DNA of 56,092 nucleotides from assembly GCA_016934395.1 (NCBI GenBank), contig JAFGSZ010000152.1, forward strand, positions 1 to 56,092, given 5' to 3'. This stretch comes from Bacteroidales bacterium. GTDB taxonomy: Bacteria > Bacteroidota > Bacteroidia > Bacteroidales > UBA10428. Below are positions 42,159-52,533 of this stretch, piece by piece. A model generated the notes under the pieces. That model had not been told where the DNA came from and did not search any database. It saw nothing but the letters and a program-made list of their open reading frames with translations. Made by a program: the position numbers and the translations under genes. The first letter of the stretch is position 1; every line of letters starts with the position of its first letter.

Positions 42159-44834
42159 TTAGTAAGCAAATAGATTATTATACAAATTTATCGTTTGGTT
42201 TGTATAAACAATCTTACCCAGATAGCTCTTTTGTTTTTCAAGCAGCTCTTCCCAATAATCATATTTTGTCAGCAGTTTATGCACTTCGCGAATAACTGCC
42301 TGGGGTTTATTTATATCGAAAGCTCCGAACTTTTGATCAAACAATTCTGCTATACCCGCATCGGCAGTATACAATACAGGAACACCCCATTTTATGGCTT
42401 CGGCAATAACAAGTCCGTATGGTTCGCTGCGCGATGGGACAATAATTAAAGATGCACCGTCAAAGGCCAGGTATCTTTCCTTCCACTGCAATTCCCCCAA
42501 TAATTCCACCGGTTTGCTGAATTCGTAATTAGGAGGCGGTAATTTATAGGTTTCAACCAGGTAATCTGTGTTAAACCCCCCGGAACTGTCTTCCATTCTG
42601 ATAATGTGGGTATAGGGCCATTCACCCTGAATTTTATAGGATATAAAACCTTTTTCAACAAGCACCTGCTCCAAATCCTTACTATGCTTTTTTGATAAAG
42701 GGCCATACCGCTCTTCAATTTTGAATAGTTTCTTTTCAAAATTTATCTGAAAGCCTGCAGGTTCAATAGTTTCAAATAATTGCAGATTTTTCTTAATTGA
42801 TTTAACCGGATTATATTTCACAGGATGTTGGGGGAAGAGTCCGTTAACGATTTCTCCAATTTCACGCTCCAGGGGCCCTCTTCCGTACATCAGGAAATGG
42901 GGTTTTGTACCAGGTTTTTTCTCGTTTATAATTTGATGAGCAATATTAACGAAAATATCAGGCCCTTTCTGGCTGCTCATCCGGCCTATAAATACCACAT
43001 TCTTGGAATCAAAATCACCCATATTGCTGTTTGTGGCCAGGTTCAGATCATCGATATTCGAAAGATAATTAGGAAGCACTACCAGATCCTTCCTGTTATA
43101 TTCATCACTAATTTTGCGGGCAGTAAAATTACTTACAGCAATTACCTTATCGGCAGCTATTGATGTGCTTTCTTCAATTTTTCTGATCATTTTACTTCTT
43201 AATTCCTTTTCCTGACGATCGCTTTCCAAAGAATGAAAATGAGCAAACCATCTTACATTTTTCTTTTTATTCTGAAGCAGCTCTTTAACTTTTAATCCTG
43301 CCCGGGCACAAATCCAATCGTGGGTATATACAATCGATATGGGTAACTGTCCCTTTTGAAAATCATCAATATTATTGAGTACCCATTGTTCAATGTTTGT
43401 AGCATATCGTTCAGCAACTCCATATATGGTGGTCCTTTTTCTTTTTTTAAAGTCTTTCCGGTTCAGCATATCATTATTATACACATTAGAAAACGATGTG
43501 CCGTAAATACCGCAATATATCGAAGTGTAAACCGATAACGGCGAGGTGTCTTTATCGTGTACCGAAATAATGTCAATTTCATTTCCGAATATTGAAGTAT
43601 CGATAAATTCTTTTGGCCAGGGTACAAAAAGTAATATACGCCAGTTGCTTTTATTTAAATTATAAATATAATGGTACAAGGCAGTCCATCCGCCGCCTGA
43701 AACAAAAGGCGGAAATTCCCATGCGATCATCAGAATTTTTCCTTTTGGGGTTGTGGTATTTGATCCATAGTATTCTACCAGCATGTTGTTAAACTGAACA
43801 TTCAGGTTTTTTACCCTGCGCCAGTTTCGTGTAAGCTTCCAGGCTTCCGTAACTTCAGATAATTTTGTTTTACTAAAATCTGCATTATATAAATCTGCAC
43901 CTTCCCACAGCACCCTGCGGAAGTCAGCTTCCGATAAGTTTGCATCATAAAAAGAAGCGCCGGCAACATCGGCAAACATAAAATTCGCCCCTGTAAGATT
44001 AGCATGGTTGAAAATTGAACCGTTTAGCCTGGCCGATTCAAAAACCGAGTTATTGAGATCACAACGTGTAAAGTTTGAATCCTCCAAAATCGCTTCCCTG
44101 AAGTTTAAACCTTCTAAGTTGGTTCTTCCTGTTTCAATCTTTGGCTTAAAATCTGCTTTAATCAAATGAAGCCCCTGCCATGAAACGTCTTTTAAAAGCT
44201 CGTTGGGAAATTTTGTGAATGCTTTTTCTACTACCGAGGTCAGTGTTTCAATCGTCTGCTTACTGTTTTTTTGTCTTCCGGCAAAGGCCAGTGCACAGGC
44301 AATTTGCTTTTTAAAATCATACGGTTCTTTAATTCTGTTTGAAAGGTCGATAAGATAGGATAGGCGGGCAATACTCGCCGCCCTGTCCGATTCCTTTTCT
44401 GACGATAAACCTGCCCATATTTCAGACAGGGCATGCTGCGCATCCACTATTTGCCGTTCTTTTTCTATTGCCTCTAACTTATTTCTTTCTTTTTCTTTTT
44501 CTTCAAGCGCCCTTTTTTCAAGATCTTTTTGGTATTCCCGGTCCTTTTGCTTTTCCTCAATATATTTATACACCGTCCATACCAAACCCAATACGGCGGC
44601 CAACCAGCCAAATGTGCTTTGAATAATTTCAATCATATTCAGCCAGAAGCTTTCAGAAAGTTTTATTGTTAAGACCGTATCAAGATTATCTGCACTAAAA
44701 AAATTATCGCCTGATAAATCATTTGCAATATTGCTTTTAATAAATGCACCGGCAATCACCAGCGTTAAGTAAATAAGAAATAAAATACCCATTAAAAGCC
44801 ACAGGAACTTATTAATTTTTTCGAGTTTTTTCAT
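42159..44834 (-). CDS. Membrane-anchored fusion: pentapeptide repeats plus GT4/GT5-like glycosyltransferase
   Basis: An 891-aa multidomain protein. Two transmembrane helices (10-32 and 68-90) flank a ~35-residue external loop, followed by a charged coiled coil (92-138). A helical segment then leads to a pentapeptide-repeat solenoid (about 225-325: LEGLNF, NFTRCDL, GSIFNHANLTGANF, EADF). From ~364 a GT-B glycosyltransferase begins (AWEFPPFVSGGGW, then THDW, VVFIGRMSSQKG), ending with the SEPYGLVIAE (EX7E) signature. An insertion of about 100 residues interrupts its C-lobe. The architecture is unusual; it suggests a membrane-tethered enzyme making a cytoplasmic glucan or glycan. It has no operon partner and is convergent with the DUF6340 gene. 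Confidence 0.85.
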   Translation of the reverse strand: MKKLEKINKFLWLLMGILFLIYLTLVIAGAFIKSNIANDLSGDNFFSADNLDTVLTIKLSESFWLNMIEIIQSTFGWLAAVLGLVWTVYKYIEEKQKDREYQKDLEKRALEEKEKERNKLEAIEKERQIVDAQHALSEIWAGLSSEKESDRAASIARLSYLIDLSNRIKEPYDFKKQIACALAFAGRQKNSKQTIETLTSVVEKAFTKFPNELLKDVSWQGLHLIKADFKPKIETGRTNLEGLNFREAILEDSNFTRCDLNNSVFESARLNGSIFNHANLTGANFMFADVAGASFYDANLSEADFRRVLWEGADLYNADFSKTKLSEVTEAWKLTRNWRRVKNLNVQFNNMLVEYYGSNTTTPKGKILMIAWEFPPFVSGGGWTALYHYIYNLNKSNWRILLFVPWPKEFIDTSIFGNEIDIISVHDKDTSPLSVYTSIYCGIYGTSFSNVYNNDMLNRKDFKKRKRTTIYGVAERYATNIEQWVLNNIDDFQKGQLPISIVYTHDWICARAGLKVKELLQNKKKNVRWFAHFHSLESDRQEKELRSKMIRKIEESTSIAADKVIAVSNFTARKISDEYNRKDLVVLPNYLSNIDDLNLATNSNMGDFDSKNVVFIGRMSSQKGPDIFVNIAHQIINEKKPGTKPHFLMYGRGPLEREIGEIVNGLFPQHPVKYNPVKSIKKNLQLFETIEPAGFQINFEKKLFKIEERYGPLSKKHSKDLEQVLVEKGFISYKIQGEWPYTHIIRMEDSSGGFNTDYLVETYKLPPPNYEFSKPVELLGELQWKERYLAFDGASLIIVPSRSEPYGLVIAEAIKWGVPVLYTADAGIAELFDQKFGAFDINKPQAVIREVHKLLTKYDYWEELLEKQKSYLGKIVYTNQTINLYNNLFAY

Positions 44835-45232: not shown

Positions 45233-47002
45233 TTATTTTTTACTCAATGAAAATATAAATTCTATCCCTCCCTCTTTCCGGTTTTTTGCAGATATTTCAC
45301 CTTTATGAAACAATACGGCATTTTTTACGATAGCCAGGCCCAGACCGGAACCTTCGTATTCTTCTGATTTTTCTTTACCTGCACGGTAAAACCGTTCAAA
45401 AATACGGGGAAGATATTCTTCAGCAATTCCGCTCCCGGTATCGGAGAATGAAAAATAATAATTGTATTTGTCTTCAAGGTACATCTTTATAGAAACGTGG
45501 ATTTTTTTCCCTGCATATTGAATGGAGTTTTCCAATAAATTTTGAAAAATTGACGCTACCAGGGAATCATTCCCTTTAATCACTATATCCTCTGCAATAT
45601 CAATATCAACCTTTATTTGTTTTTCAGCAAGGTACATATGCTGATTTTCAACAACTCCTTTTACAATTTTATGGATATTAACGTTCTTTACAGTATACAG
45701 ACTTCCTACTTCTTCAATCTTATTTAACACTCCCGTATCGTATGTAAGTTTGGTCATACGTTTTAACTGCTTCATAGCTTTTTCGGCATATGCTATTTGT
45801 TCTTTGGAAGACAGGTTGGGATTTTTAATCACATTTTCGAGCAATACTTTCATGGCATTCAGCGGCGTCTGCAGCTCAAGGGCTATATTGTTGGTCATTT
45901 CCTGCTTTAAGATTTTTCTTTTCTCAAGTTTTGTAATATCCGTAATTGATATTTCAAAGCTGTTATCCTGGAAAAGAATACACCGTATATTAAAAAATTT
46001 ACCTCCCCTGTTAATTTCAAATTTAATACCGGGAAGTTCGCCTGTATGAGGCAAACCGGCATTTTCGCGGTTGGCTTCCAGAAATTCATTTATTGGCGAA
46101 AGTTCTTCAATTGAAAAAATATTGTCGAGAGAAACCGTAAGCTTATCAGAAATGGTATTGATGTATTGAATAAAATGATTGTTTGCCATTATCTTTTTCT
46201 TTTTGGAAGTAAAAAACGCAATACCTTCCTGGGCAATCTGTATATGGCTGATCAGTTTCTCCTTTTCGGTCTGGATATCATTTTTTGCCCCTTGCAGTTT
46301 ATTAAAAATTTCTACAATCTGATTTCCGATAACACCAATTTCATTTTTTGGAAATTCGATATTCGAATTAATTTCTCCGGTTTTACTTGCCTGAATAGCA
46401 AAATCCCGTAAAGAGGAAACAGATTTCCCAAACTTATCTGCAACATAGGCCAAAGAAGCCCAGATAATAAAAAACAGGATAAGAATTACCAGCAGGAATA
46501 ATTTATTGGGGGTGAGTAATTCTCTTCCCTGAATATCATAAAGCATGGCCGTACGCACAAAATAATCATTATACATTTTTGCATAATAGTAGAATTTTTT
46601 ACCGGTAGATGCCGAAAGCCTGATGTTTGAACCTGAATCGGAATACAGCGCTTTTTGAATTTCAGGACGACTTTTGTGATTTTCCATATTCTGATATTCA
46701 TCCACAAAACTGTCGTACAACACGATACCGTCAAAATCTATAATAGTAACCCTGATGTGCTTTTCCTGAAAAAGATGCACCAGTGAATCCAGCTGTTTAT
46801 AATTCTTTGAGCCGTAAATATTATTATCCGTAAGGTAATTCTGTACCAGCCCGGTATAGGTATCCAGGGTTTTCTCAAGACTGCTGATCTTATAATCTTT
46901 CTCCCTTTTATATTGAAAGGCGCCGATAATTACGGTAAATACCAAAAAAACACCAAAAAAATAAAGAAAGAGTTTTTGTTTGTATCCATACCTGGTTATC
47001 AT
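45233..47002 (-). CDS. PhoR-like sensor histidine kinase lacking the phospho-acceptor histidine
   Basis: A 589-aa two-TM sensor (helices about 10-30 and 168-190) with a periplasmic sensor domain, a HAMP-like linker, a PAS-like region (240-360) and a kinase core. The H-box reads NNIALELQTPL where active kinases have SHELRTP/AHELKTP: the histidine position is Leu375 (codon CTT, one base from CAT). The ATP-binding motifs look intact: FQNLLENSIQYAG (N box), SDTGSGI (G1), FERFYR (F), GSGLGLAIVKN (G2). So it may bind ATP but cannot autophosphorylate at the usual site, unless this is a sequence error. It closes the phosphate operon 71 nt after phoU. No response regulator is near. Confidence 0.88.
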   Translation of the reverse strand: MITRYGYKQKLFLYFFGVFLVFTVIIGAFQYKREKDYKISSLEKTLDTYTGLVQNYLTDNNIYGSKNYKQLDSLVHLFQEKHIRVTIIDFDGIVLYDSFVDEYQNMENHKSRPEIQKALYSDSGSNIRLSASTGKKFYYYAKMYNDYFVRTAMLYDIQGRELLTPNKLFLLVILILFFIIWASLAYVADKFGKSVSSLRDFAIQASKTGEINSNIEFPKNEIGVIGNQIVEIFNKLQGAKNDIQTEKEKLISHIQIAQEGIAFFTSKKKKIMANNHFIQYINTISDKLTVSLDNIFSIEELSPINEFLEANRENAGLPHTGELPGIKFEINRGGKFFNIRCILFQDNSFEISITDITKLEKRKILKQEMTNNIALELQTPLNAMKVLLENVIKNPNLSSKEQIAYAEKAMKQLKRMTKLTYDTGVLNKIEEVGSLYTVKNVNIHKIVKGVVENQHMYLAEKQIKVDIDIAEDIVIKGNDSLVASIFQNLLENSIQYAGKKIHVSIKMYLEDKYNYYFSFSDTGSGIAEEYLPRIFERFYRAGKEKSEEYEGSGLGLAIVKNAVLFHKGEISAKNRKEGGIEFIFSLSKK

Positions 47003-47073
47003 TGTGTATTCGGTTTTTAAGTAATATTAAAAAAACAAATTATATCCCCCGGTTCAAAGGTTTCTTCAAACTT

Positions 47074-47766
47074 TTACATTTCGGGCAGGTTCTTTTTATG
47101 CCTGATGTCTACACCTTCGAATGAATATATGGCAGCCTCGGCAATATTGGTTGCCAGATCTGCAATTTGCTCAATATTCGATACTATATTTCTTAAGTTT
47201 AAAAAGGTTATAAGCAACTGCCTTGCTTTTTCGTTCAGTTCTGTTTTTTTTACCAGTTTTTCTAGCAGTTTTCTATGAAGCTTATCTACACTTTTTTCAT
47301 CATTAATCACAGAAAGAGCAGATTCTTTATCTGAATAATTAAAAGCAATTATCGAACGCTTTACCATTTCAACACTTATAGTAAGCATCTTTGTAAGAAG
47401 CTTTGTAAACCTGCTGTACAATTCCTGCGAATTTATTTCTTCAATATAACGAAGACTGTCCCAAATCAAATCACCAATACGTTCCAGGTTATCCGAAATC
47501 CTGTAGCAGGCCATAAGTTTTCTTAAATCCGAAGCCATCGGATGATACAATGTTATGGTGTTTATAACCTTATCACTGATTTTAACTTCATATTTATCGA
47601 GCTTATGTTCATCTTCTTTAGCTTTTTGAAGAATTTCCTCGCCTAATTTAATTTTTCCTGATAAAATAAACTCCATAAATAAATTCAGCTGCGACAAGGT
47701 GATTTCAGCCGCCTTTTCTACATCTTCGGAAACCGATTGTATTGCCATTTCCTTTTTTATGCTCAT
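47074..47766 (-). CDS. phoU: Phosphate transport system regulator PhoU
   Basis: A 230-aa all-helical PhoU with two three-helix repeats. Conserved stretches: MASDLRKLMACYRISDNLERIGDLIWD in the first repeat and FLNLRNIVSNIEQIADLATNIAEAAIYSF in the second, holding the metal-binding E/D(x)xx(E/D)-type positions. PhoU binds PstB and the PhoR kinase and represses the Pho response when phosphate is plentiful. It lies between pstB and the kinase gene, which is the standard place. Confidence 0.93.
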   Translation of the reverse strand: MSIKKEMAIQSVSEDVEKAAEITLSQLNLFMEFILSGKIKLGEEILQKAKEDEHKLDKYEVKISDKVINTITLYHPMASDLRKLMACYRISDNLERIGDLIWDSLRYIEEINSQELYSRFTKLLTKMLTISVEMVKRSIIAFNYSDKESALSVINDEKSVDKLHRKLLEKLVKKTELNEKARQLLITFLNLRNIVSNIEQIADLATNIAEAAIYSFEGVDIRHKKNLPEM

Positions 47767-47802: not shown

Positions 47803-48585
47803 TTATCCGAACTTCCCGGTGAGATAGGCCTCTGTTCGTTTATCTACAGGATTAGAGAAAATATTCTTGGTTTTCCCGTACTCAATAAGTTCACCCAGGT
47901 ACATAAACATCGAATAATCCGATATTCGTGCTGCCTGAGACATATTATGTGTTACCAGGATAATTGTGTAATCCTTTTTCAATTCCACCAAAAGGTCTTC
48001 AATTTTAGTTGTGGCGATCGGGTCTAACGCAGATGTGGGTTCATCCATAAGAATAATTTCAGGTTTATAAGCCAATGCCCGCGCAACACATAATCTCTGC
48101 TGCTGACCTCCCGATAAAAATGTTCCCCGCTTAAACAGGGCATCTTTTACTTCTTCCCATAATGCCACTTCTTTTAGTGACTTTTCTACAATTTCATCCT
48201 TAACACTTCTTTTAAGCTTTTTCCCGTTAAGTTTATATCCGGCAATTACATTATCGTAAATACTCATAGTTGGAAAAGGATTCGGACGTTGAAATACCAT
48301 TCCGATTTTTCTCCTGAGTTCTATGGCACTAATTTCAAAAATATTCTCATTATCAAGAAAAATTTTCCCAACTACCTCAGTATTCGGGTAAAGTTCATGC
48401 ATACGGTTTATTGCCCTGAGGAGGGTACTTTTACCACATCCCGAAGGCCCCATAATTGCTGTAATACTGTTTTTCTTAATTCCGGCATTTACATCCTGTA
48501 CGGCATATTTACCGGGCTCGTATGCAATTGAAAGACGTTCAATAGTTAAAAGCGGTGAATTTATTTGTATTATTGCATCATTCAT
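47803..48585 (-). CDS. pstB: Phosphate ABC transporter ATPase PstB
   Basis: A 260-aa ATPase. Walker A GPSGCGKST, the Q-loop FQRPNPFP, signature LSGGQQQRLCVARAL, Walker B EIILMDEPTSALDP and switch histidine THNM are all present; the FQRPNPFPMSIYDNV-like stretch is specific for PstB. It drives phosphate import through PstC/PstA. Six nucleotides separate it from pstA. Start MNDAIIQ; the first ~10 residues are variable. Confidence 0.96.
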   Translation of the reverse strand: MNDAIIQINSPLLTIERLSIAYEPGKYAVQDVNAGIKKNSITAIMGPSGCGKSTLLRAINRMHELYPNTEVVGKIFLDNENIFEISAIELRRKIGMVFQRPNPFPTMSIYDNVIAGYKLNGKKLKRSVKDEIVEKSLKEVALWEEVKDALFKRGTFLSGGQQQRLCVARALAYKPEIILMDEPTSALDPIATTKIEDLLVELKKDYTIILVTHNMSQAARISDYSMFMYLGELIEYGKTKNIFSNPVDKRTEAYLTGKFG

Positions 48586-48591
48586 CTTCTG

Positions 48592-49476
48592 CTATATTTT
48601 CCACCTTTTAGAAATCCTTTTCGCAAGTATATTGAAAAATAGTACAAAACCCATAAGAAACAATGAAGAACTCCATATTAATTTCACCATATTAGGGTCG
48701 TTGTAAAATTCCCAGATCAATAAAGGCACTGCGCTGGTGGGTTGCGCAATATTTAAATTGATTCTGCTGCTGCCCAGGGCGGTTAACATTAACGGGGCGG
48801 TTTCACCAATTATTCTTGAAACAGCCAGCAATATTCCGGTAAGAAGCCCGCTTAATCCCGAAGGAATCAACACTTTGAACAATACTTTGTGGTAGGGAAC
48901 GCCCAGTGCAAAGGCGGCTTCCTTATAGGTTTCGGGTATCATTTTTAAAGTTTCTTCAGTAGACCGTATAATTAAGGGCAACATCATTATCGAAAGTGAA
49001 GTACTACCGGCTAAAGCGGAATATCCGTTAGTAATATGCCTGACTACCCACATGTAGGCTATTACACCCAGCACTATTGAAGGAACACCCTGCAAAATAT
49101 CCGCGATTGTGCGTACCGTGCCGGCAAACCTCGACTCAGGATTTTCAGAAAGATACACTCCGGTCAGCACCCCTACAGGAACAGCCATTAAAGAGGCAAG
49201 CGCCACCATTAAAAGAGTTCCAACAATACCGTTGGCAATCCCTCCGGGTATGGTTTCATTATTGGCAACAGCAACCATAGCTTCCAGTGTATTGGGAGCT
49301 ACCCGGGTAAAAAAGTCAAAGTTAATCTGACTGATTCCCTCTCTGACCAGCTTATACAAAATTAAAATCAGCGGTAATACCGTAATGCCTGAAAGAACAA
49401 TCACCCCTATATAAAAAATACGGTCTTTCAACACACGTCTTAAATCCAGCTTTTTATGAGAGATACTAACCTGCAT
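48592..49476 (-). CDS. pstA: Phosphate ABC transporter permease PstA
   Basis: A 294-aa permease with six hydrophobic helices. The cytoplasmic loop ETLKMIPETYKEAAFALGVPYHKVLFKVLIPSGLSGLLTG is the EAA motif that contacts PstB, and PxVxLGxxAYMW and IVGTLLMVALASLMAVPVGVLTGVYL are typical of PstA. It forms the inner-membrane channel with PstC. The gene lies 19 nt after pstC and 6 nt before pstB, in one operon. Confidence 0.94.
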   Translation of the reverse strand: MQVSISHKKLDLRRVLKDRIFYIGVIVLSGITVLPLILILYKLVREGISQINFDFFTRVAPNTLEAMVAVANNETIPGGIANGIVGTLLMVALASLMAVPVGVLTGVYLSENPESRFAGTVRTIADILQGVPSIVLGVIAYMWVVRHITNGYSALAGSTSLSIMMLPLIIRSTEETLKMIPETYKEAAFALGVPYHKVLFKVLIPSGLSGLLTGILLAVSRIIGETAPLMLTALGSSRINLNIAQPTSAVPLLIWEFYNDPNMVKLIWSSSLFLMGFVLFFNILAKRISKRWKI

Positions 49477-49495
49477 AGAAAATCCTAACTTTTAG

Positions 49496-50347
49496 TTAAT
49501 AAATTCTTTTCATTATTAATTTACCCAAAAAATTCACAAGAGCAGTAATTAAAAATAATAGTAAACCTATCGCGATTAGAGAACTTAATTTTAGCCCGTC
49601 GGCTTCTCCAAATTGGTTGGCAATAACACTGGCCATAGTATTGCCCATTCCAAACAATCCTTTCGGGATAATATTGGCATTTCCGATAAGCATGGTAACC
49701 GCCATAGTTTCCCCTAATGCCCGTCCAAGCGATAATACATAACTGGCAATAACTCCGGAACTGGCAGTAGGCATTACAATTGTTGTGATAACCTCCCTGC
49801 GGGTAGCCCCCAGTGAATAGGCAGCTTCTTTAAGCTCATCCGGAACCATCGAAATGATTTCGTTACTTAACGATGTGGCATAGGGAATTATCATTATAGC
49901 CAATACCAGTGAGGCTGTAAATATTCCCAGCCCGTGTTCGTTGATTCCAATATTCACAAACAGGGGTTTCAGCACATAAAATCCCCACAAACCATATACA
50001 ATAGAGGGTATTCCCGCCAAAAGATCAACAAGTGTTCCCAGGATCCCTGCAATCTTTTTTCCCTTAAAATATTCTCCTAAAAATAATGATGTTGAAAATG
50101 CCAGGGGAAAACAAATAATTAATGCCAGCATTGAGGTAATCAATGTTCCTGCAATAAAAGGTAAGGCCCCATAAGACTCCCTTCCTTCGGTGGGATTCCA
50201 TTCCGAGGAAAAAATAAATTTTATGCCAAATTCTTTAAAAGCGGGCACGGCCCCCCCAAATAATGAAAAAGCCATGCCTCCTGCAATCACCACTATGATT
50301 ATTGCAGCAAATGTAAGTATGTATTTTGTTACCTTTTCTGCATTCAT
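49496..50347 (-). CDS. pstC: Phosphate ABC transporter permease PstC
   Basis: A 283-aa permease with six hydrophobic helices. Recognisable: KFIFSSEWNP in the first loop, FGALPFIAGTLITSML-like helix two (YGALPFIAG), AGIPSIVYGLWGFYVL, and the EAA loop DELKEAAYSLGATRREVITTIVMPTA. It lies 37 nt after the end of the pstS gene. It forms the channel with PstA. Confidence 0.94.
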   Translation of the reverse strand: MNAEKVTKYILTFAAIIIVVIAGGMAFSLFGGAVPAFKEFGIKFIFSSEWNPTEGRESYGALPFIAGTLITSMLALIICFPLAFSTSLFLGEYFKGKKIAGILGTLVDLLAGIPSIVYGLWGFYVLKPLFVNIGINEHGLGIFTASLVLAIMIIPYATSLSNEIISMVPDELKEAAYSLGATRREVITTIVMPTASSGVIASYVLSLGRALGETMAVTMLIGNANIIPKGLFGMGNTMASVIANQFGEADGLKLSSLIAIGLLLFLITALVNFLGKLIMKRIY

Positions 50348-50384
50348 TCTTACTAAATTACCTTAAAAAACGGAATTCACAGTA

Positions 50385-51455
50385 TTACTTTTCAGATAAT
50401 AATGCTTTTCCGTCATAAGTTACCGAGCTTAAAATATTCTTTGCCAATACAACAGCTCTTTCAGGTAATGGTGAATAATGAATTTTTTTGGTGACCTGCT
50501 GTGCTTCGTCGCTTACAAGCCATTCTAAAAGTTTTACGGTTTCCATAGCCTGTTCTTTAGAACGATTATTATAGTTCTGTTCTTTATAAAGAATAATCCA
50601 TGTAAAACCACTTATAGGATAAGCCTCCGGATCGATTGAATTGGTAAGCATTACACGCGTGTCTGCTGGGATATCACCTTTCGCTGCAGCGCTGATGCTT
50701 TCTGCATTGGGTTTAATATAGTTGCCTGCAGCATTTTGTAACATAGCAAAAGAAATATTCTGTGCAAAAGCATATTCAGATCCGATATATCCCAAAGAAC
50801 CTTCAGTTTGACCAATCGTGCCGGCAACCCCGGGATTTCCTTTCGCGCCCATACCAACAGGCCAGTTTAATGATTTACCCCTTCCTACTTCCTGTTCCCA
50901 GGCCTCACTGATTTTCGACATATAATCGCTAAAGATATAAGTAGTTCCGCTTCCGTCTGATCTTACAACTACCGTTATTTTTTTATCGGGAAGGTTCACA
51001 CCGGGGTTGTTTTCCTCAAGGGCAGCATCATTCCATTTGGTAATTTTACCCATAAAAATTCCTTCAAGTAATGTTGTGGTTAATTTTAATTCGGGTACTT
51101 CGGGCAGGTTATAAGCTATAACTACTGCTCCAATACACGTTGGAATATGTACCACTTCTGCCGGCATCTCGGCAAGGTTTTCATCACTCAGATAAGCATC
51201 AGTTGCCCCAAAATCTACTACTTTATCAGTAAGGCTTCTTATTCCGCCTCCTGAACCAATACCACCATAGGTAATGCTAATCCCTGTTTTTTCCTGATAA
51301 TTACTAAAAACCTGGTTGTAAAATGGCATAGGGAATGTTGCCCCGGCTGCCGTTATCGATATTTTTGAATCGGCGCTGCCACTCTTTTGCTGGCCTTGTT
51401 TACAAGCAGTCATTATAAGTAATGCTGCAATAATTACTAAGTGTATTTTTTTCAT
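50385..51455 (-). CDS. pstS: Phosphate-binding lipoprotein PstS
   Basis: A 356-aa binding protein started at the ATG ending at 51455, where the lipoprotein signal (MKKIHLVIIAALLIMTAC) begins; the 21 codons upstream are unlikely. Phosphate-binding pocket motifs: AAGATFPMPFYNQVF, YGGIGSGGGIRSLTDKVVDFGATDAYL, and RSDGSGTTYIFSDYMS. PstS captures phosphate in the periplasm and hands it to PstCA. The preceding porin gene is 86 nt away in the same operon. Confidence 0.94.
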   Translation of the reverse strand: MKKIHLVIIAALLIMTACKQGQQKSGSADSKISITAAGATFPMPFYNQVFSNYQEKTGISITYGGIGSGGGIRSLTDKVVDFGATDAYLSDENLAEMPAEVVHIPTCIGAVVIAYNLPEVPELKLTTTLLEGIFMGKITKWNDAALEENNPGVNLPDKKITVVVRSDGSGTTYIFSDYMSKISEAWEQEVGRGKSLNWPVGMGAKGNPGVAGTIGQTEGSLGYIGSEYAFAQNISFAMLQNAAGNYIKPNAESISAAAKGDIPADTRVMLTNSIDPEAYPISGFTWIILYKEQNYNNRSKEQAMETVKLLEWLVSDEAQQVTKKIHYSPLPERAVVLAKNILSSVTYDGKALLSEK

Positions 51456-51540
51456 TTTAAATAATTTTAAAAATATTTTGCAATAATAGGATTTCGAAAG
51501 TAAGATAACGTTATACAAAAGTTATGTAATTGTTATTATA

Positions 51541-52533
51541 TTAAAAAGAAACCGACACATTAAGGTAAATCATCGATAAAAAGGAATCGTTATTATCTGC
51601 CGGATTCCATCCCTGAAAGTTGGGTGCGATCTGGATTCCCTTAACCGGTGTAAATTCCAAACCGGCAAGAATAAGTTGTCCGTCTTTGGCCAGGTTCCAA
51701 TCATCTGTCTCGCCCGAAAGGGTATTGGAGGTAAGGTAGTCATACCTTGCAAAAAGCTCAAACTTTTTCCCCAAAGCCACAGCTCCATAACCGGAAAATC
51801 CCGAAAGATTGTGATCTTTGATCATTTTATTATTATTCTGCAGGTTATATTCCACACCCAATGAAACTCCTTCAAAAGTATAACCAATAAATGTTGCAAT
51901 AGTGATTTGTGAAGCATCATTTTTCATCCAGTCAAAATAGCCCCGGATAGTCAGGCCATCCAATGGATTTAAAGTTATTCCCAAACCGGCTTTATAAGTA
52001 CTGTCTAACTGTACTTTTTTATACCCTTCGCCGTTTGTAAGAGCAATATCTGCCTGAATAAAATCTGCAACTTTATAAGAAACACTGGTTCCCAGGTCGG
52101 CGCTTGGATTCAGACCATATTCATCCTGAAAAGATTTATAAATGTAACGGCGGCCCCAGAATTTTTCCTGCACTTTAAAATGCAGCGTCCCAATCATACC
52201 AAAATTGGCTGAAAAATTATTTTTCTTATAATTAATAAATGCGTTCTTTAAAAATGCAGTATGCTGTAAACTTCCGGATCCGGGATTGCCAACGTCCAAC
52301 AACACTCCGCCCGAAAATTCTTCACTGAAATTATAGTTGTAACCAAAATATGCCCTTGTAACTTCAAAAGCGCTGGCATTTTTATCTTCAAATAGTTGTG
52401 TATGGAAATTCGTAAAAATCCGGATGGTAGGTTTCCCATTTGGAATGAATTTTTCCTCTGCCGGGGTTTCCTGACTGAAAATCCCTGTTAATACACCAAT
52501 CAAAAACAACAATACTAAAAAACTTTTTTTCAT
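51541..52533 (-). CDS. Phosphate-operon outer-membrane porin (OprP/OprO-like)
   Basis: A 330-aa secreted protein (signal to FSQ) resembling phosphate-selective porins of the OprP/OprO group: RIFTNFHTQLFEDKNASAFEVTRAYFGYNYNFSEEFSGGVLLDVG at the N-terminus, strands such as KFELFARYDYLTSNT and GLEFTPVKGIQIAPNFQGWNP at the C-terminus, ending with a C-terminal aromatic strand (LNVSVSF). It is the first gene of the pst operon and probably lets phosphate cross the outer membrane. A Pho-box-like array lies about 70 nt upstream. Confidence 0.82.
   Translation of the reverse strand: MKKSFLVLLFLIGVLTGIFSQETPAEEKFIPNGKPTIRIFTNFHTQLFEDKNASAFEVTRAYFGYNYNFSEEFSGGVLLDVGNPGSGSLQHTAFLKNAFINYKKNNFSANFGMIGTLHFKVQEKFWGRRYIYKSFQDEYGLNPSADLGTSVSYKVADFIQADIALTNGEGYKKVQLDSTYKAGLGITLNPLDGLTIRGYFDWMKNDASQITIATFIGYTFEGVSLGVEYNLQNNNKMIKDHNLSGFSGYGAVALGKKFELFARYDYLTSNTLSGETDDWNLAKDGQLILAGLEFTPVKGIQIAPNFQGWNPADNNDSFLSMIYLNVSVSF

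Follow-up and report, generated by a model that had tools for sequence, protein, structure and literature searches.

Histidine kinases that lack the phospho-acceptor histidine are an already known kind. DivL of Caulobacter is reported to signal although it has neither kinase nor phosphatase activity (PMC4211667). Its acceptor site holds a tyrosine (an alanine in one species); the protein binds DivK~P and is conserved among alphaproteobacteria. ChrS of Corynebacterium glutamicum has lost its kinase activity and still has a signalling effect. The hybrid kinase CCNA_03265 of Caulobacter was also reported to be without the conserved histidine, and its authors consider the nearby H151 as the acceptor. 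We found no description of a PhoR pseudokinase in the searched open-licence papers on PhoR, pseudokinases and phosphate.

We analyzed a stretch of 56,092 nucleotides from a Bacteroidales genome (referred to as the window), which encodes a PhoR-derived sensor protein of 589 amino acids (45233..47002, minus strand). Like DivL, this protein combines DHp and CA domains with a residue other than histidine at the acceptor position, the structural mark of a pseudo-histidine kinase; it differs from DivL in having leucine at the site, in being found in a single genome, and in that its partners, PhoU or the Pst transporter, are only proposed. Its likeness to ChrS would lie in the loss of kinase activity with a signalling effect present, whereas the lesion in ChrS is a CA-domain frameshift from laboratory evolution and the regulator ChrA is still there. 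We consider it probable, with some reserve, that the protein is a lineage-specific pseudo-histidine kinase that descended from PhoR, has dropped out of phosphotransfer and signals by contact.

A PhoR-derived kinase in the pst-phoU operon

The kinase gene closes an operon-like series of minus-strand genes, which comprises a porin-like gene at the operon head (51541..52533), pstS (50385..51518), pstC (49496..50347), pstA (48592..49476), pstB (47803..48585), phoU (47074..47766; PF01895, 110.5 bits) and the kinase. The pstB and pstS genes were assigned by Pfam and locus comparison, pstC by locus comparison, and pstA by 65 to 68% identity to the pst operons of loci L278, L279 and L282. The porin-like gene, which has no Pfam match, occupies the same place in these three loci and in L087; we take its product to be OprP-like by name, no family match being available for it.

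The initial annotation had called the kinase the PhoR of the phosphate operon, and its neighbors as well as its score bear this out, since the Bacteroidetes PhoR family of NCBIfam (NF053855) matches residues 7-588 with 616.5 bits against a curated cut-off of 500. The order of domains is a membrane N-terminus, a Cache-like sensor (24.2 bits in Pfam, below the cut-off of 27), a second membrane helix, a PAS-like region, the DHp domain without acceptor histidine, and the ATPase (CA) domain (HATPase_c, 80.2 bits). The HisKA profile matches residues 366-430 with 25.1 bits, slightly below its cut-off of 26.9, and scores 29.4 bits in the whole-genome search. The reading frame is open over all 589 residues, and its codon-position GC resembles that of phoU. 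In the AlphaFold2 model of the single chain (53-sequence alignment; mean pLDDT 85.6, pTM 0.49) the DHp domain forms a two-helix hairpin (357-393 and 399-431); the top Foldseek matches of this model are WalK (9a5d) and VicK (4i5s), with DivL (4q20) at ranks 31 and 35. The search for a second intact PhoR that had been proposed with the initial annotation returned one NF053855 match in the genome at E <= 1e-90, and the next-best kinase is only 31% identical over residues 355-588.

The kinase therefore agrees with the Bacteroidetes PhoR proteins in its full-length homology and score, domain order and pst-phoU neighborhood, but departs from them in having no acceptor histidine in the H-box, no lysine or arginine at H+3 and an altered ATP lid, and in that its PhoB partner was not found. 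Judged by its sequence, it is a Bacteroidetes PhoR relative by descent and should not be filed as a working histidine kinase.

Replacement of the phospho-acceptor histidine

The H-box of the window kinase reads NNIALELQTPLNAM. Codon 375, at the phospho-acceptor position (45878..45880, minus strand), is CTT (AAG on the plus strand) and encodes leucine, and the HisKA alignment is unambiguous here, so that the replacement described in the initial annotation stands. Histidine occupies this column in all 201 other orthologue loci, namely 97/97 (L070-L166), 28/28 (L250-L277), 60/60 (L344-L403), 13/13 (L404-L416) and 3/3 (L417-L419), among which genomes recur, the first 185 loci representing at most 177 distinct sequences. 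Among 393 genomes sampled evenly across the order, PhoR above the NF053855 cut-off was found in 101 (the window's genome included), and the 100 others all have the histidine.

The use of another nearby histidine as acceptor was also considered, and is rejected: the DHp domain of the window kinase (residues 356-432) contains none, unlike CCNA_03265 with its H151, and the orthologues all carry the canonical one. Autophosphorylation at the canonical site should thus not be possible for this kinase. The genome has 65 HisKA hits, 62 of which carry the histidine (54 scored by script and 8 by eye). The three that do not are the window kinase (Leu), C102:14862-15071 (L319; Gln) and C133:4047-4247 (L343; Asn).

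The other residues were compared over 120 aligned full-length orthologues (93 in an earlier set), the alignments leaving out L084-L086, whose proteins are short, and one sequence from each of two duplicated pairs. In the DHp domain (45707..45937, minus strand), the most-changed part of the protein, position H+3 is Gln378, where all 120 orthologues are basic (Arg in 73, Lys in 47); Val386 replaces glycine (117 orthologues; alanine in the other 3), and Asn390 replaces the threonine of 117/120. The residues Glu376 and Thr379 (H+1 and H+4), which we take to be those of the E-x-x-T motif, are retained together with Pro380. In the CA domain (residues 479-589; 45236..45568, minus strand) N488, N492, D521, G523, G525, F535-R540, G551, G553 and G555 are kept. 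The earlier description of the N, G1, F and G2 boxes as intact holds for their cores but not for the ATP lid, which has Glu544 (G544E; Gly in 118 of 120 orthologues), Lys545 (R545K), Glu547 (R547E) and Glu550 (G550E), the last three at positions that are Arg, Arg and Gly, respectively, in every one of the 120.

These departures bear on the simplest artefact, a single-base sequencing or assembly error at codon 375. The leucine is known from one genome and, as was remarked in the initial annotation, the leucine and histidine codons here are one base apart; however, residues 378, 386, 390, 545, 547 and 550 also depart from the orthologues, the DHp branch is the longest of 52 (see below), and one wrong base would leave the absence of phoB unexplained. 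We rejected an error as the sole cause because several fixed residues are altered together, and give this explanation a negligible probability.

Apparent absence of the PhoB regulator

A PhoB-type regulator gene adjoins the kinase on the same strand in 177 of 185 orthologue loci (95/97, 23/28 and 59/60 in the three largest sets). It lies upstream of the kinase in 176 of them, including 12 counted by eye in loci where the match to the kinase starts some way into the protein, and downstream in one (L372). The distance between the two genes is 0.6-1.0 kb in four loci (L110, L119, L250, L253), and a few of the regulators are contig-end fragments. Among the eight loci without a neighboring regulator, L136 and L368 have no upstream sequence, and L093, L254, L255, L262, L273 and L277 look genuine. 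In the window, the place just upstream of the kinase that phoB takes in most orthologue loci is the 71-bp gap between phoU and the kinase (47003..47073).

A permissive tblastn search for a phoB remnant in the window gave a best E-value of 0.22, and no cognate PhoB was found elsewhere in the genome by protein search, family search or tree. Both the protein query and the family search are able to detect a relocated PhoB, as they do in genome G217 (contig C46, 60% identical). The genome has eight OmpR-type regulators, and a tree of 61 regulators places all eight outside the PhoB clade (35 rows, 99/99 support). The nearest of them is 42% identical to a Butyricimonas PhoB, and it and its neighbor score 204.4 and 212.8 bits against the cut-off of 270 for the PhoB family NF053854. 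As the assembly consists of 155 contigs (98.63% complete, 4.32% contamination) and is the sole genome of its genus compared, PhoB could sit in a missing part.

The PhoB-like regulators on contig C117 of this genome were considered as PhoB orthologues and rejected by both the tree and the NF053854 cut-off. At this locus (L205; 9747-13640) a transporter gene is flanked on either side by a PhoB-like regulator of the OmpR type, neither of which reaches the cut-off. We assume that the transporter, which has no NCBIfam match, is a PiT-type phosphate transporter. It is possible that these two proteins are substitute phosphate regulators in a genome that lacks PhoB.

Within the order sample, 90 of the 101 genomes with PhoR have a PhoB above the cut-off. 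In six of the remaining 11 the regulator gene is cut by a contig end (G135, G197, G207, G297, G301, G369), which leaves five real candidates for genomes without PhoB: that of the window, G118, G218, G302 and G376. The last four have no PhoB above the cut-off and keep the acceptor histidine, hence loss of phoB does not force loss of the histidine. A common ancestry of the phoB loss with family f97 is unsupported, as they do not come out together in the kinase tree, although the position of the window kinase itself has a support of only 88/75.

Several orthologue loci have unusual arrangements. Loci L278 and L279, of G118 and G218, are porin-pstSCAB-phoU-phoR operons with an intact histidine, no phoB in the operon and none above the cut-off in the genome; they raise the question of which regulator serves their kinases. 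Locus L093 of Lutimonas halocynthiae (Flavobacteriaceae) encodes a PhoR orthologue with intact histidine and has no pst or phoB match within its 19.8 kb, the kinase gene being adjoined by genes that read like trp genes. In L250 and L253, about 0.6 kb separates the regulator fragment from the kinase and includes an open reading frame, whose product presumably resembles the four-helix-bundle proteins of the rRNA intervening-sequence type.

Distribution of sequence change along the kinase

Branch lengths were fitted on a fixed tree of 52 kinases, and DHp/sensor and CA/sensor ratios were calculated over 41 tips. For the window kinase, the tip branch measures 0.61 in the sensor half (15th longest of 52), 1.36 in DHp (the longest) and 0.46 in CA (4th). 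Its DHp/sensor ratio of 2.24 compares with a median of 0.45 over the 41 tips; 100 column bootstraps give a 95% range of 1.37-4.26, the DHp rate being imprecise because the domain has only 77 columns. In 98 of the 100 bootstraps, DHp exceeds its expected length by more than the full length of the sensor tip branch. The CA/sensor ratio of 0.75 ranks sixth of 41, an unexceptional rate that is compatible with a working ATPase and a scaffold alike. The next-highest DHp/sensor ratio, 1.60, belongs to the L093 kinase, which is likewise without a neighboring phoB.

Identities and near-invariant positions follow the same pattern. In its identity to other rows, the window kinase is the lowest of 121 for DHp, whereas 104 of the 121 lie below it for the sensor half. 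Across the 120 orthologues, the sensor half (residues 1-355; 45938..47002, minus strand) departs at 0 of 29 near-invariant positions and residues 356-589 at 8 of 49, a difference of modest significance (Fisher p = 0.023); the smaller, earlier set of 93 orthologues gave 0/27 and 13/56. Synonymous sites are expected to be saturated because protein identity is about 45%. The largest number of departures in residues 356-589 for any other row, 13, was found in a PhoR match with an in-frame TGA (L263; G180:C24:14400-16145), possibly a frameshifted or decaying PhoR copy.

Drift of the whole protein should have added equal change to the sensor half; since the excess is in DHp, the sensor half has seemingly remained under constraint. 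On these branch estimates, uniform decay does not fit the pattern.

Functional interpretation

The initial annotation had offered a phosphatase-only partner, a scaffold or a heterodimer as possible roles of a kinase that cannot autophosphorylate. A phosphatase-only sensor, with its kinase activity lost but still dephosphorylating a regulator, would make use of the retained E376 and T379, and the two PhoB-like regulators at another locus might be its substrates; in EnvZ, PMC5727384 describes H243A as abolishing kinase activity and T247A as abolishing phosphatase activity. The same paper describes the acceptor histidine of HK853 as helping to activate the hydrolytic water, and the HK853 H260A complex as showing only inactive-state signals (PMC5727384). 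This part of the histidine in the phosphatase reaction makes the phosphatase-only role less likely, and the cognate PhoB that it would dephosphorylate was not found; moreover, the basic residue at H+3 is lost, helix 1 is changed beyond it, and DivL is reported to have neither activity (PMC4211667). We regard the phosphatase-only role, the part of the earlier proposal that has been weakened, as very unlikely. A heterodimer, in which the protein pairs through DHp with another histidine kinase and modulates it, has precedents in the ChrS pseudokinase with HrrS (PMC9491836) and in RetS with GacS (PMC12189002). The DHp domain is still predicted to be a hairpin, and the many histidine-bearing HisKA proteins of the genome are potential partners; on the other hand, the kinase has no close paralogue among them and its diverged DHp offers no pointer to a partner, which makes this role distinctly unlikely. 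The kinase might instead be a decaying relic of a system abandoned at the loss of phoB, drifting towards a pseudogene. The missing PhoB and the lost acceptor, H-box and lid residues would agree with such decay, but the 589-residue frame is open, the sensor half is as conserved as in histidine-bearing orthologues, and the excess change is mainly in DHp, exceeding the whole sensor branch in nearly all bootstraps. We therefore consider a relic unlikely.

The pseudo-histidine kinase that we favor would have originated from an ordinary Bacteroidota PhoR that was paired with PhoB inside the pst operon. In the order of events that we infer, the operon lost its phoB, which to judge from the assembly is gone from the rest of the genome too; DHp would then no longer have had to match a response regulator, and changes followed at the acceptor histidine and at neighboring H-box and ATP-lid residues. 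Sensing was probably retained, given that constraint persisted on the periplasmic and PAS halves as DHp diverged. The protein would still read the phosphate signal but relay it through its shape and its contacts instead of handing on a phosphate; candidate contacts are PhoU or the Pst transporter of the same operon. In E. coli, PhoU is reported to contact PstB as well as PhoR, the latter via its PAS domain (PMC4423584), which makes a PhoR-like scaffold at the transporter plausible. The protein probably continues to read its signal by contacting proteins of the Pst-PhoU complex. More tentatively, and with rather low confidence, it may have left two-component signalling altogether now that PhoB is gone and, with its sensor and PAS parts retained, control phosphate uptake directly through PhoU/Pst contacts, DHp serving only as a dimer joint.

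The pseudo-histidine kinase proposed here would be a histidine kinase caught after the loss of both its phosphotransfer partner and its acceptor site, in a system whose components are understood in other bacteria. Since the change is concentrated in the regulator-contacting domain, the protein lets one ask what a sensor kinase keeps without phosphotransfer, and the four genomes with intact PhoR and no PhoB above the cut-off (G118, G218, G302 and G376) are natural comparison stages.

Other observations in the window

The Pst proteins of the window (47803-51518) are 65-73% identical to those of L278, which belongs to another family, but only 21-56% identical to those of L070 from the same family. 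Either a transfer of the pst operon or its differential loss could account for this pattern. On the minus strand at 42159-44834 lies a gene for an 891-residue protein without a PADLOC match, which combines a membrane-type N-terminus, pentapeptide repeats (residues ~238-328) and a GT4-type glycosyltransferase (~366-860; Pfam GT4-conflict, 55 bits).
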